Positions 11,711-21,098 of a stretch of 64,000 bases of DNA are shown here, in pieces; the first letter of the stretch is position 1, and the number at the start of each line of letters is the position of its first letter. The translations under genes and the position numbers were made by a program. The notes beneath the pieces are model-generated. The model ran no database searches, was not told the DNA's origin, and saw nothing but the letters and a program-made list of their open reading frames with translations. The stretch comes from Gammaproteobacteria bacterium (GTDB taxonomy: Bacteria > Pseudomonadota > Gammaproteobacteria > Steroidobacterales > XN24). Location: contig JARFQW010000034.1 in the NCBI GenBank assembly GCA_029287575.1, positions 1 to 64,000 on the forward strand. Reading direction: 5' to 3'.

Positions 11711-13597
11711 TCATCGGCGAGCCTGCAGGCCATCGTCTGACCGGCCGCCGGGAATGTCCGCCGGACCCCGGAACCGTCGTTCGACCTCGAGTTCCGCGAT
11801 CTGGGACGGGGCCAGTCCGTCCCGGGCCAGCAATTCCGTCCAGCGGGGATCGTCGTGCAGCGAATGCAGCAGGGGATTCGTGTTCCATCTGTCGGGCGCC
11901 GGAGACTCCGGCGGGTCGATCCGCTCCTCGAGTATGCTGAAGGCATCATCCTGCCGCCCGACCCACGCATAGGCGCTGGCCAGGAAACTCTCGGGCCGCA
12001 CATGGAGCCGACCGTATTTTTCATCCCCGACCGATGCCTGGAGATCGGCAAGAGCAGCCTCGTAGTCGTCGCGTCGGCCCAGGGACCAGTAGGCCAGCGT
12101 CTTGCCCTGCACCACGACGAACTCGATGGTTCGTGCCGATTCGAAGGTCGCAAGCGCCGCTTCGGCATCGCCCTGCAGAAGCTGAATGACGCCGAGCATG
12201 TAGGTGCCCGAGCCGCCCGTCAGCTTGCGGTAGCGGCGATTCACCTCCTCCGCCGCCGCGTAGTCGCCGCTGCCCATCAGCGTAAGCATCAGTCCCCGCA
12301 GACAGGCCGCGCAAAGCGGATCCCTGCTCAACGCAAACTCGTAATAACCCACCGCAAGGCCTGAATAGCCGAGCCGGGCAAGGAGATTGGCCGCGTAGCG
12401 GTTGGTGTCGACGTCGGTTGGCAGGAGCCGGAGACCGAGCTCGGCGGCCGTCACCCTGGCCTCCCAGGAGCCCTGGCCCCAGGTGTCGAGCACGGCCAGC
12501 TCGGTGCGGGCTTCCGGATTGCCGGGGTCCAGTACGAGGACCCGGTTCATGGTCTCGCGCAGATGGGCTAGGAATTCATCCTCGGTGAGCTGGCCCCAGT
12601 AAAACCGCTGCTTGTCCACGGTGCGGTAAAGGAGCAGAGCCGCGACGTTGGTCGGATCGAGCTCCAGCGCCTCATGGAGAAGCCGGTCAGCCTCGGCGGC
12701 CGCCTCGCTCACCTGCTGGGTTAGCAGGTGACGGGCCTGAAGGTACAGCGCATAGGATTCGGGATCGGTGCGGTCCGCCAGTGGCAAATTCCCGCTGATC
12801 TGGAGTTCGAGCCGGTCCACGACCCGGGTGGCGATCGCCTCCTGGATGGCGAAAATGTCGCCGAACTCCCGGTTGAAGCTCTCCGACCACAGCTGCGTGT
12901 CGGTGTGGGCATCGACAATCGTCGCCGTAATGCGCAGGCGTTCGCCCATCCGTCGAACCGAGCCCTCCATCACGAAGCTGACGTTCAATCGCTCGGCGAT
13001 CTCGCTGGCGCTCAGATTCTGCCCCTTCAGGGCAAACGCGGAGGAGCGTGCGATGACCCGCAGATCGCGAATCCGGGACAGCAGGTTGATGATTTCCTCG
13101 GCGATGCCGTCGGAGAAGTACTCCTGGTCTTTCTCGGGTGAGAGGTCCGCGAAGGGCATGACCGCGATGGAGTGTTCCCCTAACGATTCAATCAACGCGT
13201 CGTCCCGGGCCTGCTCGGCGGCCTCGCTGGCGATCTCGGCGTCGCGGGCCGGGTCGATGATGAACTTGTCGAATGCAAAGTAGCTGACGGCCACGGCAAG
13301 GGTGACGATGACGACCCGGTCAAGTCGTCGGGCGGCGTCGCGCCGGGAAGGCGCGTCGTGATCCACCGCCCGGTCCTGGGCCAGACCCTCCGGGGTGAGC
13401 TCGAACAGCCAGGAGCCGATCAGCACCGGCACGAGCCCGATGGCAAGCAGGATTACCACGATCCGAACCGCCGAATCGGAGATCCCGAAGACCGGTGCCA
13501 GAGAGTCCAGCACCTGCACGATGAGCCAGGCGAAGGCCACGTAAGCCGTGCCCACCCGGATGACGTTGCGCCGTTGCAGTTCCGAGATCAGCGACAT
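11711..13597 (-). CDS. Membrane protein with TolB/FlgO-like domain and TPR repeats
   Basis: A 628-residue protein. The N-terminus (SLISELQRRNVIRVGTAYVA) leads into two hydrophobic spans (about residues 15-65) and a third (about 93-112). The domain starting HSIAVMPFADLSPEKDQEYF (about residue 142-260) is the TolB N-terminal/FlgO-like fold found in many CadC- and adenylate-cyclase-like regulators. The rest is tetratricopeptide-like helical repeats (about 275-600). There is no N-terminal winged helix or cyclase domain, so it is neither a CadC-type regulator nor a cyclase. Likely a membrane-anchored scaffold or sensor; the function is unknown. It converges on the TonB-dependent receptor with a 76-base gap. 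Confidence 0.8.
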   Translation of the reverse strand: MSLISELQRRNVIRVGTAYVAFAWLIVQVLDSLAPVFGISDSAVRIVVILLAIGLVPVLIGSWLFELTPEGLAQDRAVDHDAPSRRDAARRLDRVVIVTLAVAVSYFAFDKFIIDPARDAEIASEAAEQARDDALIESLGEHSIAVMPFADLSPEKDQEYFSDGIAEEIINLLSRIRDLRVIARSSAFALKGQNLSASEIAERLNVSFVMEGSVRRMGERLRITATIVDAHTDTQLWSESFNREFGDIFAIQEAIATRVVDRLELQISGNLPLADRTDPESYALYLQARHLLTQQVSEAAAEADRLLHEALELDPTNVAALLLYRTVDKQRFYWGQLTEDEFLAHLRETMNRVLVLDPGNPEARTELAVLDTWGQGSWEARVTAAELGLRLLPTDVDTNRYAANLLARLGYSGLAVGYYEFALSRDPLCAACLRGLMLTLMGSGDYAAAEEVNRRYRKLTGGSGTYMLGVIQLLQGDAEAALATFESARTIEFVVVQGKTLAYWSLGRRDDYEAALADLQASVGDEKYGRLHVRPESFLASAYAWVGRQDDAFSILEERIDPPESPAPDRWNTNPLLHSLHDDPRWTELLARDGLAPSQIAELEVERRFRGPADIPGGRSDDGLQARR

Positions 13598-14332: not shown

Positions 14333-14415
14333 TCTGGCGGCTCGTGCCGATGCCGGCACCCGGGCGATCCTTAGCTGATATCCTCGGCGGCCATGGAGCA
14401 GGAAACGATCACCTG

Positions 14416-16269
14416 ATGCCGGCACCGCGTGGCCTCTTGACCAACCGGGGGTTCCTGTCGCTCCTGGTCGTCCGGGCCACCGGATTCTTCACCCAGTCTC
14501 TGCTGCGCGTCAGCATTCTCACGCTGCTTCTGACCGCCGCTGATGCCCGCACCGATCCCGCGGGGTTTCCGGGCCATCTCATCGTGCTCCACGCCCTCGG
14601 CATGCTGCTGTTCGGCGCCCTCGGCGGGGCTATTGCCGACCGTCTGCGCCGTGATCACGTGGTCCAGCGGGTCAAGCTCATGGAGGTGTTTTTGGCCATC
14701 GCCATGGGCTGGCTGCTGGTTCAGGGCCATTTCGCCGGTCTTTATGTCTGCGTCTTCCTTCTCGGTGTCCGCGACGGGCTGACGGATCCCGCCATCAACG
14801 CCGCGATTCCGGACTACGTCCGCAAGACACGCCTCGCCCAGGCCAACGGCGTGCTGCTGGCCTGCGTCATCGGCGCGACCCTCGTCGCCGTCGCCGCCAT
14901 CCTGGAACTCGCCGACGCCGGAGAGCGCTCCCGTCTTGTGCTAGCCGGGCTCGCCGTCGGGAGCAGCCTGCTCGGCCTGGCTGGGGCGCACTTCATGCCG
15001 GCAATCCCGGCGGCCGCGTCATCCGTCGGCGATATCCCCGCGCCGCGGGCCTCCCCGGGCGACTGTTTCAGGAGCCTGGGCCTGGACCGCTACACCCTGC
15101 TGGCCGGTATCGGTATCGCTTGGTTCTGGATGCACGTCTCCGTCTACTTCGCCTATCTGCCGGAATATGCCCAGACAAACGCGGGCAACGGCCTGACGCC
15201 CGGCAACCTGGCCGGCGCCATGGCGGCGGGCTCCGTGATCGGCGCGCTGCTGCTCGGCCCCCTGTCCGGTCGCCGCGTGGAGGTCGGACTCGTTCCCCTG
15301 GGCGCGATCGGTCTGGCCGCCAGCGGCCTTTATCTGTACCTGGCCGCCCCGGGTTTCGGGCACGCCGCCGACCCGGGCCTGGGCATCGGTGATATCGCCT
15401 CACTCCTGTGCCTGGGGCTCATGGGGCTGTCCTCCAGCTTTTACGTGCTGCCGCTCTACGCCGTGCTCCAGCTGCGTCTTGCGCGCCGGCATGCCGGCCG
15501 CGCCTTCGGGGCGGTGGTCATCGCGACCGGACTGGTGAGCTCCCTCGGCCTGCTGCTGGCGGCCTGGTTGCAGGGGGAGGGCCTGTCCCCGAGCGCCATT
15601 CTGCTGGCCGGCAGCGTGATCCAGGCGGTGGCCGCCGTCTATGTCTTCACGGTCATTCCCGAATTCCTGATACGGCTGCTCATGTGGCTGGTCACCCACA
15701 CCCTCTACCGGGTGCACAGCAGCGGCCTGGGCAACGTGCCGGCGGAGGGGCCGGCGCTGCTGGTCTGCAACCATGTGTCGTTCATGGACGCGCTCGTGAT
15801 CGGTGGCTGCATCCGCCGGCCGGTGCGCTTCGTGATGCACAAGTATATTTTCGAGATCCCGGTCATCAACCAGCTCTTCCGCTGGTTCAAGACCATTCCC
15901 ATCGCGTCGGCGAAGGACGATCCACAGACGCTGACGATCGCCATGGACCGGGTGGCCGCCGAGCTGGAAGCGGGCCGGGTCGTTTGCATATTCCCCGAAG
16001 GCCGCCTGACCCGGGACGGGGAAATCGGCGAGTTCCGCAACGGTGCGCTCCGTATCGTGGACCGAACGCCGGTACCGGTCATCCCCATGGGGCTGTCGGG
16101 TTTGTGGGGCAGCTTCTTCAGCAACTGCGGCGGCCCGGCGATGAAGCACCGACCGCGCTGGCCGTTCTATCGCGTGGACCTCACCGTGGGCCCGCCTCTG
16201 CAGCCGGAAGGCCTGACCAACACCGAGCTCAAAGCCGAGGTTCAGCGGTTGCGGGGACCGGTGGGCTAG
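14416..16269 (+). CDS. MFS transporter (LplT-like) fused to 1-acylglycerol-3-phosphate acyltransferase
   Basis: Inner-membrane fusion of 617 residues. The N-terminal ~410 residues form an MFS-type bundle of 10-12 helices like the lysophospholipid flippase LplT. The C-terminal ~200 residues are a PlsC-type acyltransferase with NHVSFMD (HX4D catalytic motif) and FPEGRLTRDG. The pair would flip and re-acylate lysophospholipids. Related triple fusions also carry an acyl-ACP synthetase (Aas) domain, which is absent here. ATG 14416 is chosen from where homologous N-termini begin (LLTNRGFLSLLVVR); an in-frame GTG at 14344 is possible and neither has a strong ribosome site. The 3' end overlaps the convergent AAA/WD40 gene by 41 bases. 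Confidence 0.85.
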   Translation: MPAPRGLLTNRGFLSLLVVRATGFFTQSLLRVSILTLLLTAADARTDPAGFPGHLIVLHALGMLLFGALGGAIADRLRRDHVVQRVKLMEVFLAIAMGWLLVQGHFAGLYVCVFLLGVRDGLTDPAINAAIPDYVRKTRLAQANGVLLACVIGATLVAVAAILELADAGERSRLVLAGLAVGSSLLGLAGAHFMPAIPAAASSVGDIPAPRASPGDCFRSLGLDRYTLLAGIGIAWFWMHVSVYFAYLPEYAQTNAGNGLTPGNLAGAMAAGSVIGALLLGPLSGRRVEVGLVPLGAIGLAASGLYLYLAAPGFGHAADPGLGIGDIASLLCLGLMGLSSSFYVLPLYAVLQLRLARRHAGRAFGAVVIATGLVSSLGLLLAAWLQGEGLSPSAILLAGSVIQAVAAVYVFTVIPEFLIRLLMWLVTHTLYRVHSSGLGNVPAEGPALLVCNHVSFMDALVIGGCIRRPVRFVMHKYIFEIPVINQLFRWFKTIPIASAKDDPQTLTIAMDRVAAELEAGRVVCIFPEGRLTRDGEIGEFRNGALRIVDRTPVPVIPMGLSGLWGSFFSNCGGPAMKHRPRWPFYRVDLTVGPPLQPEGLTNTELKAEVQRLRGPVG

Positions 16270-19200
16270 CCTCGGGTTCGGCCAGCGAACCGGATTCCGC
16301 CCAGCCGGGTACGACCGCGCCCCTCTCGTCGAGCACCAGCTTCAGGCGCTCCGACCAGGGCTCTGCCTGAAGGGCAGACGGCACGGGCGTCGCCGGCAGC
16401 ACGCGGCTTTCCCAGCCCAGAACAGAGAGCATCGGCAGGAGGCCCGACTGGTCCAGAAACACCACCCGGCTGCCGTCGTTGCGAGCCGTCGTCCAGGCAC
16501 TGACAGGCACATACCCCGGCAGGAGCTGGCTGGCCGAGACTTCCAGTCGTGCGCCGTCGTCTTCGAGTCTGTGCAGCCATTCGCTGCTCTGCATCAGCAT
16601 GGCCTGCCCGGATTCAGGCAGCGCCAGCGCAAGAACCGGACCATCGATCCTGAGGGTTCTGCGGGCGCTGTCCGGGGCGTCCAGGTTCCAGACAAACACA
16701 TCGCCCATCCGCGAGCCGGCCGCCAGCCGGAGGCCGTCGGCCGAAAAGGCCAGGCTGATCGCTTCTTCAGGGATATCAATCTGCCACTCCAGGCGCAGAT
16801 GCGACACATCCCACACCTGAACCTGACCATCCGAAGCCACTGCCGCACGGGAACCCGACGGATCGAACGCGACCCCGGTCACCGCCCGGCCGGGGCCCAG
16901 CGGACCCAGGAGCTGCCCGGACGCTGCGTCCCAGATTTCCGCACCCGCCGCACCCGCCACGAGCGCCCGGTCGCCGCCCCGGGCAAGAGCCGCGACCGGT
17001 CTCTGGCCCACGCCGTGATAGAACACCGGACCTTCCCTGTCCCCGGTATTGGCATCCCACAAGGCAACGCTGCCATCGTCGGCAACGCTGAGCAGGCTGC
17101 CGCCAAGATCGTCGAAGGCCAGTGCCACGACGCGGCCGGGATGCTGAGGCGGCGGAATCCTGGCCGGTGCGCCGGCGGCCTGGCCGGCAACAACCGGGCG
17201 GAACAGCACGCGTCCGTCGCCGCCGCCCTGGGCCAGACGCCGGCCCCGGGGATCCAGGACCACCGCGCTGCTTCCGGCAAGATAGGGGTCGGTCCCCTGG
17301 GCCGCCGCATCCAGCCGCCAGATCCGGGCGGTCTCCGCACCGATTCCGGTGACCACGAATCCTCCCGCGCGGCTCACGACCGCGCCGTAGGTTCCGTCGG
17401 GAACCCGGCCCGCCGAAAGACGCCGTGAACTGTGCCTGAGCAGGGGGCTCACCGGCCGGCCTTCCGGCAGCGACCAGAGCTGATAGCTGCGACCGCGTAT
17501 GAGGGTCACGAGATGGTCGCCCGACGGATCGAAGGCCAGCGCCGCGGGGTCTTCACTGGAAACGACAAGGACCGTACCCGCGCGCCGGCTCGGCGGCAGC
17601 GCAAGGACACGGGCGAGCCCTGACCGCTCGGCCACCATCAGCCAGCGTCCGCTGGCATCGATTTCCAGACGCTCCACCGGCGTGTCGAGAATTTCCTCGA
17701 CGGCCTGGCGACCCGTGTCGCCATCCCATACCCGCACTACCTGCTGGGCATCCGCCATGGCCACGAAGCGCCCCGCCGGCCCCAGCGCGAGCCGCTGAAC
17801 CTCGCCGCCGGTCAGCACGGGAGCCAGTTCCTCGCCGTCGTCCAGGCGCCATCGGCGGATCTGCACCTGCCCTTCCGGTGCCATATCGGCCGCGGCCAGG
17901 TAGGCACCGGCAGCCGCCGCGACACCGCCGACGAAACGGCCATCCGGCGTGCTGGACAATGCGCGGGCGCCGGTTGCCGCCCGCCAGGCGCCCAACTCGC
18001 GTCCGCCGGCGCTGACAATCAACAGATACTCTCCGGATGCGTCGAAGCGTATCGAGCGCTCACCGGCATCCAGGGGTATGCGCGCCACCGGCCGGCCGAA
18101 CTCGAGATCCCAGATCAGGGCATGACCCCGGGCGTCCGGGTTGCGGCTGACGGCGGCCGCCCAGCGAGCGTCCGGGCTCAGAACGACGCGGACTCGTGCC
18201 GTGGTCCGGGGATCGGCCAGCGGCAGGGGATTCTCAGGCTGGTCCACCACCTGAATCCCGCTGGCACCACCCAGAAACAGGGACCACCCCAGGAGTTCGC
18301 CGGCGTTGTCGCCGCGACGATCCTCAAGGTCGAACCGCCAGGTCCCTCTGGCGTCCTCGCGGGCCAGATCGGCCAGGGTCGGCGCTTCCCGGCCGGTGAT
18401 ACGGATCCTGCCGTCCACGCCAACCACGGCGTTGCCGAGCGGGAATTCCACCTGCCGCCCGGAAGGGGCGGTCAGCTGGGCCACCAGATCCTGCAGGCGC
18501 CGATGGGTGGTGTCCACGGTGATCCGGAGATCGCGGGCCTGGCCTTCGGCGTCCACGGTCACCCGCCGGGTCACCGGGATGAAGTCCTCCGCCAGCAGCG
18601 CGCGGGTCTGGCCCATGGGCAGCCCGTTTCGCGGATCCCAGATCTCGACCTGATTGCCCATCGACAAGGTGGCGACCCGTGTTCCGTCCGGATGCACGGC
18701 CAGCGCTTCAACGCGTCCCGCCGGTCGCACTGCGGTAATCAGCCGAGGGTAGTCGGCGCCGATCAGCTGGGCGATCGCCGCATCCGGACCCGTCCCGCGG
18801 GTGCGTGCGGCCTCCAGCCGATAGATCAGCGCCTGGTCACGGTGTTCCCGGGCTTCGGCCTGGGACGCCAGCCGGGACCAGAAGTCCGCCAGCAGCTGAT
18901 CCGCCTGGCGGGGTCTGCCCAGCGTTTCCCTCAGCTCGGCGTCGGCGGCCCGAACCTCGTCCCATGTCACAGCCTGCAGGCTGCGCCGCGCCAGCACGCC
19001 GGAGAACAGGTCGTCCGCCATATCCCCGAAGCCGGGGATGCGGCGCAGGCTGGTGTAGGCGTCCACGGCAACGTTGTAGTCCACCGTGGAGCCCTCCAGC
19101 GCATGAACGTACGGCCGCGGCAGTATCTTTGCGTACCACAGGGGAATGCCCGCCACGATGAACAGGGCCGCCGCGCTCCTGAACAGACCGCGCCAGTCCG

Positions 19201-20368
19201 TTGGCCGGGTCTTTTTGGCCCAGCGGGCGCTGAACACATTGGCGTAGATCCGGTTGCGGACCACCAGACGGCCGCCGTCGGCCACGCGCACCAGACCGGC
19301 GACGCGCAGCAGATCGTGGACGGGGGAATCCGGGTCCAGAATGACGCTGCGGCCGGTGTGAATCTTCCGGTACAGGCGCAAGGCAGGCAAAACCAGTCGA
19401 CCGCCGCGGGCCAGCGTCTCACGGACGCGGCAGAGATTCGGTTCGGTATAGAAGGCGTTGCGGCCGAAGAAACGCTCGGCGACGAGGGTGTCCACGTCGG
19501 CGTCACTCACGATCCGCCCGCCGGCCCGGGCCGCCGCCCGCGAGACCTTCTGGGTCAGGAACGGCTGGCCGCCGGTCCAGTAGAGAATCCGGTAGAGAAC
19601 CCGGTCTGCCTCGCCCGGCGGCAGGCGCAGTCCACGGCACAGGGGCCGGGCTTCCTCGAACGTGAAGTCATTCAGCTCCACTCGCCGGCCGATATCGAAC
19701 AGCGATCGCTCCGCGGGGAGCATCCGGTCTCGGGGCGGCGCCGTGCCCACCAGCGCAAAGGCGAGACGCTCATAGTCCGGCTCGGTAGCGCGAGCGTCGT
19801 GGCATGCGCGGACACTGGCAAAAAAATCCGCGGCGAAGGGCAGTTCGTCCACCTCGTCGAGGCCGTCCAGGAAGATGACCACGGGGCCTTTCGTGGACCC
19901 GAGCACGACCTCCCAGAAAAACTCCGACAGGCGCTGGCTGGCCCCCAGCGCCATGTTTTCCTGCCACCACTGCTGAAGATTGACCTTCAGGCGCAGGTCG
20001 CGAACGATCCGGTAGGCGATCCCGTAGTACCAGCGGCCGGGCTCGGGCACGTCGTTGCGGCCGCCGAAATGCGCCAGATCCACCACCGCGGCCGACATAC
20101 CGGCCGCGCGGAGCCGCTTGGCGCAGCGCGCAACGAGGCTCGATTTACCGCTCTGACGGGGCGCCAGCACGTGGCAGAACTCGCAGGCGGACAGCAGCTC
20201 GTAGAGTTCCCGGTCGGCGGTCCGCTCGATATAGCAGTCACGGTCCGGCTGCACGGGACCGCCGACGGCATAGAACGACTCGTCCCTTGCCGAGCGCCGC
20301 AGGTCAAGACGCTGGACCTGTGAGCCGGGGTCTCCGGTGATCTCCTCCATTCGGCGGATTCTGGCCAT
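16229..20368 (-). CDS. Giant AAA-like ATPase / P-domain / WD40 membrane protein
   Basis: A 1379-residue multidomain protein. Residues ~30-390 are an AAA-like (PF14516-type) NTPase: VGGPVQPDRDCYIER, Walker A APRQSGKSS (~69-77), Walker B VVIFLDGLDE (~163-172). One hydrophobic span (~398-412) follows. The C-terminal ~830 residues are WD40-like repeats (units ending xIWD/xVWD, e.g. VEIWDP, VRVWDG, VQVWDV, FVWNLD). Between early blades (~599-700) lies a segment resembling a proprotein-convertase P-domain (DLRITVDTTHRRLQDL, then GTWRFDLEDRRGD and GELLGWSLFL). AAA-WD40 fusions typically act in signalling or scaffolding; the P-domain insertion is unusual. ATG 20368 is used; GTG 20386 and ATG 20350 are alternatives, none with a clear ribosome site. 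Confidence 0.85.
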   Translation of the reverse strand: MARIRRMEEITGDPGSQVQRLDLRRSARDESFYAVGGPVQPDRDCYIERTADRELYELLSACEFCHVLAPRQSGKSSLVARCAKRLRAAGMSAAVVDLAHFGGRNDVPEPGRWYYGIAYRIVRDLRLKVNLQQWWQENMALGASQRLSEFFWEVVLGSTKGPVVIFLDGLDEVDELPFAADFFASVRACHDARATEPDYERLAFALVGTAPPRDRMLPAERSLFDIGRRVELNDFTFEEARPLCRGLRLPPGEADRVLYRILYWTGGQPFLTQKVSRAAARAGGRIVSDADVDTLVAERFFGRNAFYTEPNLCRVRETLARGGRLVLPALRLYRKIHTGRSVILDPDSPVHDLLRVAGLVRVADGGRLVVRNRIYANVFSARWAKKTRPTDWRGLFRSAAALFIVAGIPLWYAKILPRPYVHALEGSTVDYNVAVDAYTSLRRIPGFGDMADDLFSGVLARRSLQAVTWDEVRAADAELRETLGRPRQADQLLADFWSRLASQAEAREHRDQALIYRLEAARTRGTGPDAAIAQLIGADYPRLITAVRPAGRVEALAVHPDGTRVATLSMGNQVEIWDPRNGLPMGQTRALLAEDFIPVTRRVTVDAEGQARDLRITVDTTHRRLQDLVAQLTAPSGRQVEFPLGNAVVGVDGRIRITGREAPTLADLAREDARGTWRFDLEDRRGDNAGELLGWSLFLGGASGIQVVDQPENPLPLADPRTTARVRVVLSPDARWAAAVSRNPDARGHALIWDLEFGRPVARIPLDAGERSIRFDASGEYLLIVSAGGRELGAWRAATGARALSSTPDGRFVGGVAAAAGAYLAAADMAPEGQVQIRRWRLDDGEELAPVLTGGEVQRLALGPAGRFVAMADAQQVVRVWDGDTGRQAVEEILDTPVERLEIDASGRWLMVAERSGLARVLALPPSRRAGTVLVVSSEDPAALAFDPSGDHLVTLIRGRSYQLWSLPEGRPVSPLLRHSSRRLSAGRVPDGTYGAVVSRAGGFVVTGIGAETARIWRLDAAAQGTDPYLAGSSAVVLDPRGRRLAQGGGDGRVLFRPVVAGQAAGAPARIPPPQHPGRVVALAFDDLGGSLLSVADDGSVALWDANTGDREGPVFYHGVGQRPVAALARGGDRALVAGAAGAEIWDAASGQLLGPLGPGRAVTGVAFDPSGSRAAVASDGQVQVWDVSHLRLEWQIDIPEEAISLAFSADGLRLAAGSRMGDVFVWNLDAPDSARRTLRIDGPVLALALPESGQAMLMQSSEWLHRLEDDGARLEVSASQLLPGYVPVSAWTTARNDGSRVVFLDQSGLLPMLSVLGWESRVLPATPVPSALQAEPWSERLKLVLDERGAVVPGWAESGSLAEPEASPPVPATAEPRL

Positions 20369-20447
20369 GCCGGGGCGGAATGTCACCCGGCAGGTCGCCC
20401 CACCGCCGCGCCGCGGTTAGACTCGCGGGCTTTACAGGCAGCGGCCT

Positions 20448-21098
20448 TTGCCCTTGAAATTGTTGTTGAAACAAGACGTTTTCGGCACCGTCAGCCGGGA
20501 AAACCGCGACGGTCGGCCGATTGTGGTCCGGGACCTGGATCCGGCCCGGTGGTGGGCGCGGCCCCTGGCGCGCTTTCTGGCGGGACGGGAAGCAAAGGCT
20601 CTGAGACGGCTCGATGGCCTGTCGGGCCGCGTGCCACAGCTGCTGTCCTGGGACGGCCGGCGTCTCGAGCGCACCTGGCTGGACGGGCGTCCGATGCAGC
20701 AGGCCCGGCCACGGCACCATGACTATTACTCCGAGGCGCTGAAACTGGTCAGGCGGATACACGCCGCGGGCGTTGTCCACAACGACCTGGCAAAAGAACC
20801 CAACTGGCTCGTGGATCCCGACGGCCGTCCCCTCGTGGTGGATTTCCAGCTGGCCTGGGCGCCGCGCCGCCGGACCCGGCTGTTTCGCCTGTTCGGGCGG
20901 GAAGACCTGCGTCATGCCTTAAAGCATCGCCGCTATTACGCCGCCGAGTCCCTCAGCGCCCGGCAGCGGGAAATCCTGGCCAATCCCGGCTGGATATCGC
21001 GGAGCTGGCGGGCGACCGTGAAGCCGGTCTACCTCTGGATCACGCGCCGCGTCCTTGGCTGGTCAGACCGGGAGGGAGCCGGCGACCGCCAGCATTGA
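20448..21098 (+). CDS. RIO/WaaP-like small protein kinase-fold phosphotransferase
   Basis: A 216-residue protein with the core of a small protein-kinase-like fold: the catalytic loop GVVHNDLAKEPNWLV (His-Asn-Asp, with Asn six residues after the catalytic Asp) and a metal-binding Asp in LVVDFQLAW in place of DFG. Such short enzymes belong to the RIO/lipopolysaccharide-core-kinase group; the substrate (LPS sugar or protein) cannot be told. The C-terminus is strongly basic (RRYYAAESL...SRSWRATVKPVYLW), suggesting membrane contact. The frame begins with TTG 20448; further TTG codons at 20454 and after are alternatives. It is transcribed divergently from the AAA/WD40 gene across 79 bases. Confidence 0.75.
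   Translation: MPLKLLLKQDVFGTVSRENRDGRPIVVRDLDPARWWARPLARFLAGREAKALRRLDGLSGRVPQLLSWDGRRLERTWLDGRPMQQARPRHHDYYSEALKLVRRIHAAGVVHNDLAKEPNWLVDPDGRPLVVDFQLAWAPRRRTRLFRLFGREDLRHALKHRRYYAAESLSARQREILANPGWISRSWRATVKPVYLWITRRVLGWSDREGAGDRQH

Follow-up and report, generated by a model that had tools for sequence, protein, structure and literature searches.

An AAA_35 NTPase family of the Steroidobacterales with a P-domain inserted in the first of two predicted extracytoplasmic propellers

P-domains are familiar as partners of secreted proteases, and nucleoside triphosphatases (NTPases) resembling the signal transduction ATPases with numerous domains (STAND) are mostly cytoplasmic switches; can both be parts of one protein and, if so, on which side of the membrane does each part reside? 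The question is raised by a gene in the first 64,000 nt of contig JARFQW010000034.1 (GCA_029287575.1, order Steroidobacterales), a stretch called the window here. The open reading frame (ORF) occupies positions 16229..20368 of the minus strand and encodes 1379 amino acids, with residue 1 at the ATG at 20368; the GTG at 20386 and the ATG at 20350 are alternative possible starts. An earlier note, made from the sequence alone, described a fusion of an AAA-like NTPase and WD40 repeats, with a P-domain-like segment at approximately residues 599–700, and both parts of this description hold. In the Pfam search of the whole protein AAA_35 (PF14516) matches residues 37–278 with 97.1 bits against the cut-off of 27 (100.5 bits in the profile search of genomes), many WD40 and propeller models span residues 831 to 1254, and P_proprotein (PF01483) matches residues 613–697 with 32.1 bits against the curated cut-off of 21. 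An NCBIfam search of the protein was uninformative, the best match having 13.3 bits against 225. We consider the domain architecture described below practically certain.

Of 296 genomes of the same order, 139 contain the gene (E ≤ 1e-10), usually in one copy each; they represent 33 of the 68 genera. From these 139 genomes 101 proteins (the window's own and 100 relatives) were taken for comparison, and the other 38, many of them fragments at contig ends, were left.

The segment with the PF01483 match is a genuine P-domain. Scanned alone, it scores 37.6 bits (E 2.4e-9), and it is the sole P-domain match in the assembly at E ≤ 0.001. The same family was matched in 97 of 100 separately scanned P-regions (own and 99 relatives; the three without a match are not named individually in the scan), while the identity of the relatives' P-domains to the window copy is 18–43%. 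In the P-region alignment A1, which excludes L142, where the P-region is absent, P61, G101, and W103 are invariant, and H48, G63, D109, G116, and W121 nearly so. Searching PDB with the profile of the P-region alignment retrieves the Aeromonas extracellular serine protease (E 2.6e-8) and, weakly, furin and kexin (E 0.012–0.06, furin at 0.012), with unrelated L18 chains next at E ~0.1. The AlphaFold2 model of residues 575–728 alone has a mean predicted local distance difference test score (pLDDT) of 92.4 and a predicted template modelling score (pTM) of 0.82. It matches the furin P-domain with Z 9.5 and root-mean-square deviation 2.5 Å over 97 aligned residues, covering residues 596–703, and the P-domains of kexin and the Aeromonas protease with Z 9.4 and 8.3, respectively; the margin is modest, as unrelated beta-sandwiches score Z 7.7 and lower. 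Given the profile score, its recurrence among relatives, the PDB profile match and the fold match, the segment therefore is not just another propeller blade, the alternative named in the earlier note.

No kexin- or furin-like protease domain was found before the P-domain, and none of the 25 Pfam matches listed for the protein, out of 34, is to a peptidase family; what stands upstream is AAA_35, the membrane span, and a helical stalk. One relative, L142 (8104–11787), is devoid of the P-region altogether, the domain being cleanly missing. In family f173 (L131, L132, L138, L139) the P-domain region is strongly diverged, and a profile built without this family still detects all four of its regions (E 7.6e-15 to 2e-7, with only these four sequences searched).

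The place of insertion is seen in the AlphaFold2 model of the C-terminal part (residues 418–1362), which was built from 96 sequences and is confident (pLDDT 91.0, pTM 0.90), with two propellers and a separate P-domain; alignment A2 excludes L132, L141, L142, L171, and L173, being short, truncated or containing unread bases. Along the chain the model contains seven helices, forming the stalk, predicted to be extracytoplasmic (residues 419–537, positions 18758..19114; here and below, parts of the protein are on the minus strand), then a group of four strands, the first blade-like group of propeller 1 (residues 543–577, 18638..18742), the P-domain (residues 596–710, 18239..18583, delimited by PF01483 and the furin fold match), and further strand groups, the next of which begins near residue 721. 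In propeller 1 the P-domain thus separates the first blade-like strand group from the second, being inserted among propeller repeats, as had been proposed. The rest of propeller 1 corresponds to residues 721–1017 (17318..18208), and propeller 2, a seven-bladed WD40 propeller according to the model and structural alignment, to residues 1026–1321 (16406..17293). Thirteen more blade-like groups were counted after the P-domain; together with the first group they would give two seven-bladed propellers, the probable number of blades in propeller 1 being read from the modelled strands. Propeller 2 aligns with WD40 propellers with Z of about 23–26 over model residues 609–904, e.g., with WD repeat protein 61 (Z 25.5, 277 residues aligned). 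For the tandem propellers, Apaf-1 (3shf, 3sfz) ranks among the best Foldseek matches, and the Foldseek search against viral models yielded generic propellers.

The NTPase region (residues 30–394, 19187..20281, PF14516), predicted to be cytoplasmic, contains the Walker A GKS at residues 74–76 (20141..20149) and the Walker B aspartate D168 (19865..19867). G74, K75, and D168 are present in all 101 proteins, and with its nucleotide-binding residues so strictly conserved, the NTPase is likely to be active. Compared with STAND receptors, the protein has intact nucleotide-binding residues and a C-terminal repeat sensor, represented by the two propellers of the model; no N-terminal or linked effector domain was found, as AAA_35 starts at residue 37 and Pfam reports nothing before it. 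Effector domains are common in STAND receptors, but not universal. A PDB profile search of the NTPase part gave RecA fusion chains only, over 40 residues, and no stretch passed alone; we treated this as a Walker A cross-match. Two PADLOC matches, a repeat-type one to HEAT-ARM_XIII in the WD40 part and a weak one to PDC-S01 over the Walker A region (E 0.0076), were not read as defence.

Between the NTPase and the stalk, hydropathy indicates a single membrane span (residues ~399–416, 19121..19174), followed by a conserved WYxxxLPxPY-like motif in the alignment of relatives. In the window protein the strongest hydrophobic 19-mer is at residues 398–416, with Kyte-Doolittle mean 1.68; the strongest 19-mer is found around residues 390–416 in 99 of the 101 proteins, with the family median of 2.07. 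Cysteine is distributed very unevenly about this segment: 360 in 36,789 residues before the span (0.98%) and 11 in 94,106 after it (0.012%), an 84-fold drop, with 93 of 101 proteins having no cysteine after the span at all. Such avoidance is typical of the Gram-negative periplasm. At the same loci (stop-to-stop frames, gene names assigned from sequence) the proteins compared contain 0.86% (isocitrate dehydrogenase), 1.14% (AceK), 1.68% (ProA), 1.28% (GlpD), 0.25% (outer-membrane patatin), and 0.35% (YSC84-like) cysteine; the TonB receptor family (0.75%) misfits a simple inside/outside rule, and TonB receptors can carry disulphides. The net charge summed over the 101 sequences is +83 before the span and –51 after it. 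Taken together, the span, the cysteine drop and the charge bias assign the NTPase to the inner side of the membrane, and the propellers and the P-domain to the outer side, as expected of a single-pass protein with an external C-terminus. We regard this predicted topology as highly probable, and both the single span and the sidedness suggested in the earlier note for the case that the span is real are thereby supported by the family as a whole.

The P-domain is recognizable in 97 of the 101 relatives examined, and we see the complete protein as an inherited family of one bacterial order. In the first search, of a class sample, it was found in two of 274 genomes, both from the order. A profile comprising the span, stalk and P-domain gave full-length matches in three of 369 genomes of the class, all of the order, and in one of 398 genomes of the phylum, which is the window's own; in the remaining matching genomes (26 in the class, 19 in the phylum) essentially the P-domain part only was matched, so that this search of 369 and 398 genomes found no full architecture outside the order. 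Three P-domain matches outside the order were examined, and all three are secreted-type proteases, of families M36, M6, and S8; the M36 and M6 proteases (L216:1174–3330 and L218:1495–3294) contain two P-domain stretches each. AAA_35 is above the cut-off in eight of 274 class genomes, and among AAA_35 relatives in named records, the nearest come mostly from cyanobacteria and match over the AAA part. The top-scoring named-record match is L004 from Verrucomicrobiales, where three consecutive AAA_35 proteins are encoded (L004:2662–9225): one with TIR, one with a weak DUF2092 match, and one with repeats resembling tetratricopeptide repeats (TPR).

Descent within the order is vertical: in the tree of 41 of the 101 proteins each family with at least two rows forms one side of a branch. 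L142, which has no P-domain, is sister to L123, which retains it, and the loss in L142 is therefore secondary. We infer that the architecture was assembled once, anciently, and then descended vertically, its source probably being an AAA_35–WD40 protein acquired from elsewhere and a P-domain of a secreted protease.

A divergent neighbour of the gene encodes a small RIO-like kinase (20448..21098, plus strand, 216 aa; PF01163 with 26.3 bits against the cut-off of 22), whose start is 80 bases from the ATG of the NTPase gene, on the opposite strand. In the PDB it matches Rio2 kinase (E 6.5e-5), and it reads DFQ in the place of DFG, usual in kinases. Out of the 296 genomes, 139 have the NTPase gene, 112 have the kinase (E ≤ 1e-20), and 83 have both. 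In 81 of the latter the genes are neighbours in divergent orientation, the exceptions being on different contigs. The kinase and the NTPase gene occur together more often than by chance (odds ratio 6.5, Fisher 2e-13), the genomes being related and the p-value hence not a true probability. Ten of the 29 genomes with the kinase only were examined for a protein that might stand in as its partner, and no relative of the NTPase protein was found there at E ≤ 1e-3 (one of them, L253, is a short contig). In two of these ten a gene encoding a major facilitator superfamily (MFS) transporter fused to an acyltransferase immediately precedes the kinase gene, with both on one strand (L254:6151–8730 and L260:6491–9495, gaps of 4 and 138 bases). 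This arrangement suggests that in the window's lineage the NTPase gene was inserted antisense into an older pair of acyltransferase and kinase genes. We thus read the kinase adjacency primarily as a sign of common history, and only secondarily of common function.

In the window the MFS–acyltransferase fusion (14344..16269, plus strand; PF01553 with 96.8 bits, PF07690 with 62.8 bits), Aas/LplT-like, is convergent with the NTPase gene and overlaps its 3' end; the two genes are convergent neighbours in 16 of the 41 loci. A patatin-BamA-like gene is near in 12 of 41 loci, and genes of isocitrate dehydrogenase, AceK, ProA/ProB, and GlpD are also conserved nearby (all named from sequence); small families that merely mirror real genes on the antisense strand, e.g., families 1, 6, and 7 of the neighbourhood table, were set aside by eye. 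A promoter scan of the region between the NTPase and kinase genes gave one sigma-70-like site, on the minus strand (hexamers 20386–20358), which was not used, as it lies at or inside possible start codons. The window also encodes, on the minus strand at 11711–13597, a TPR-type protein with apparent N-terminal hydrophobic segments.

What might such a protein do? Starting from the domains, folds, insertion site, conserved nucleotide-binding residues and vertical inheritance, all obtained computationally, we consider transmembrane signalling the simplest working model, because the sensor-like part is outside and the switch inside. The protein may be an inner-membrane AAA_35, STAND-like signalling NTPase with a sensor outside the cytoplasm, to which we assign about even chances, and slightly less than that to the sensor–switch role itself. 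The NTPase would be cytoplasmic, one span would cross the inner membrane, and a periplasmic helical stalk would carry two WD40 propellers, the first one with the P-domain. The propeller face and the P-domain, a borrowed binding module, could bind an envelope ligand or a partner protein; binding might shift the stalk and the span, and this, in turn, might change the nucleotide state or oligomerization of the NTPase, which would relay the signal to a cytoplasmic partner, the RIO-like kinase being the first candidate. A more elaborate and rather doubtful version is an inside-out Apaf-1-like receptor, a core protein of the order, reading the periplasm with the double propeller and the protease-derived P-domain arm; it might detect envelope proteins that are unfolded or cleaved, and might signal via the RIO-like kinase.

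Several observations weigh against the signalling model. The P-domain is not strictly required, since L142 has lost it and f173 has a diverged one. At E ≤ 1e-20, 56 of the 139 genomes that have the NTPase gene lack the kinase, while 29 have the kinase alone, and we rejected it as an obligate partner; its adjacency may simply record the site where the NTPase gene was inserted. The N-terminal effector domain, often present in STAND receptors, is lacking by Pfam, and the hydropathy of the window protein's own span (1.68) is borderline. The latter value, together with the usual cytoplasmic location of WD40 propellers, would favour a protein that is cytoplasmic as a whole, like typical WD40 STAND proteins, with the hydrophobic segment not being a span; we find this scarcely credible, given the family median hydropathy, the constant place of the strongest segment, and the near absence of cysteine after the span, as opposed to 0.51% after the AAA part in AAA_35 proteins of other phyla (70 of 80). 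The loss in L142, clean and with the sister L123 keeping the domain, the divergence in f173, and the plausible source in secreted-type proteases, seen in all three matches scanned outside the order, are also consistent with a P-domain captured once and tolerated as a functionless passenger in a loop. At the same time, it is recognizable in almost all relatives despite the low identity, with three residues invariant, and so much conservation over such divergence suggests selection on the P-domain, making the passenger explanation improbable.

The chief alternative is a scaffold of the envelope coupled to energy, where the NTPase would power or gate periplasmic work, that is, assembling, remodelling or holding envelope proteins, and the propellers and the P-domain would dock partners, as the periplasmic propellers BamB and TolB do. 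The topology evidence fits it equally well, the patatin-BamA-like and MFS–acyltransferase neighbours point to envelope lipids and proteins, and one copy per genome with vertical inheritance would suit housekeeping. On the other hand, conservation of neighbours is partial and may reflect general synteny, as the isocitrate dehydrogenase, AceK, ProA/ProB, and GlpD genes suggest, and AAA_35 relatives elsewhere look receptor-like, e.g., the TIR–AAA_35 protein in L004; we consider the scaffold unlikely, if still the strongest competitor of the signalling model. The same TIR–AAA_35 protein, and the resemblance of a STAND-like NTPase with a propeller to known conflict proteins (PMC7159879), could be taken to indicate an NLR-like (nucleotide-binding leucine-rich-repeat-like) receptor that responds to phages or other invaders by killing the cell or arresting its growth. 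One copy per genome, vertical descent with monophyly at the family level, no effector domain by Pfam, no convincing match to a defence family by PADLOC, and the sensor apparently outside the cytoplasm argue against it, and such a role seems very improbable.

All modules of the protein are already known; their combination, the topology and the inheritance across an order we did not find described in the open-licence literature searched, nor did we find there a report of P_proprotein together with WD40. In a survey of the serine proteases of prokaryotes from 2008, P-domains appear next to subtilase domains (PMC2605481). If a conserved family indeed joins P-domain and STAND-like NTPase across the inner membrane, STAND-type sensing would extend to the bacterial envelope, and the P-domain would gain a role independent of proteases.

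Among known systems, PkwA of Thermomonospora curvata joins a kinase to one propeller, and its WD40 domain (5yzv) matches propeller 2 with Z 25.4; to our knowledge, PkwA contains neither AAA_35 nor a P-domain. The AAA_35–WD40 proteins, mostly cyanobacterial (e.g., L030, L042), share with the window protein the AAA_35-like domain, a hydrophobic segment, and a long WD40 array. The AAA_35 relatives are 33–42% identical to the window protein, essentially over the AAA part, and differ from the window family in cysteine content after that part, as given above; a search of the ORFs of 250 aa or more in the 80 AAA_35 loci revealed no P-domain at E ≤ 1. Apaf-1, one of the top structural matches of the C-terminal part, is alike in the order of its parts, with an NTPase switch, then helices, then tandem propellers. 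It is a cytosolic NB-ARC STAND protein with an N-terminal CARD, and is not known to have a span or a P-domain; its propellers match as a common fold, which need not mean kinship. Finally, the P-domains of furin, kexin, and the Aeromonas protease are similar to the window one both by profile and by fold, but there the P-domain follows a secreted protease, whereas the window protein, in which no peptidase domain was found among the Pfam matches listed, carries it within a propeller that comes after a membrane span.

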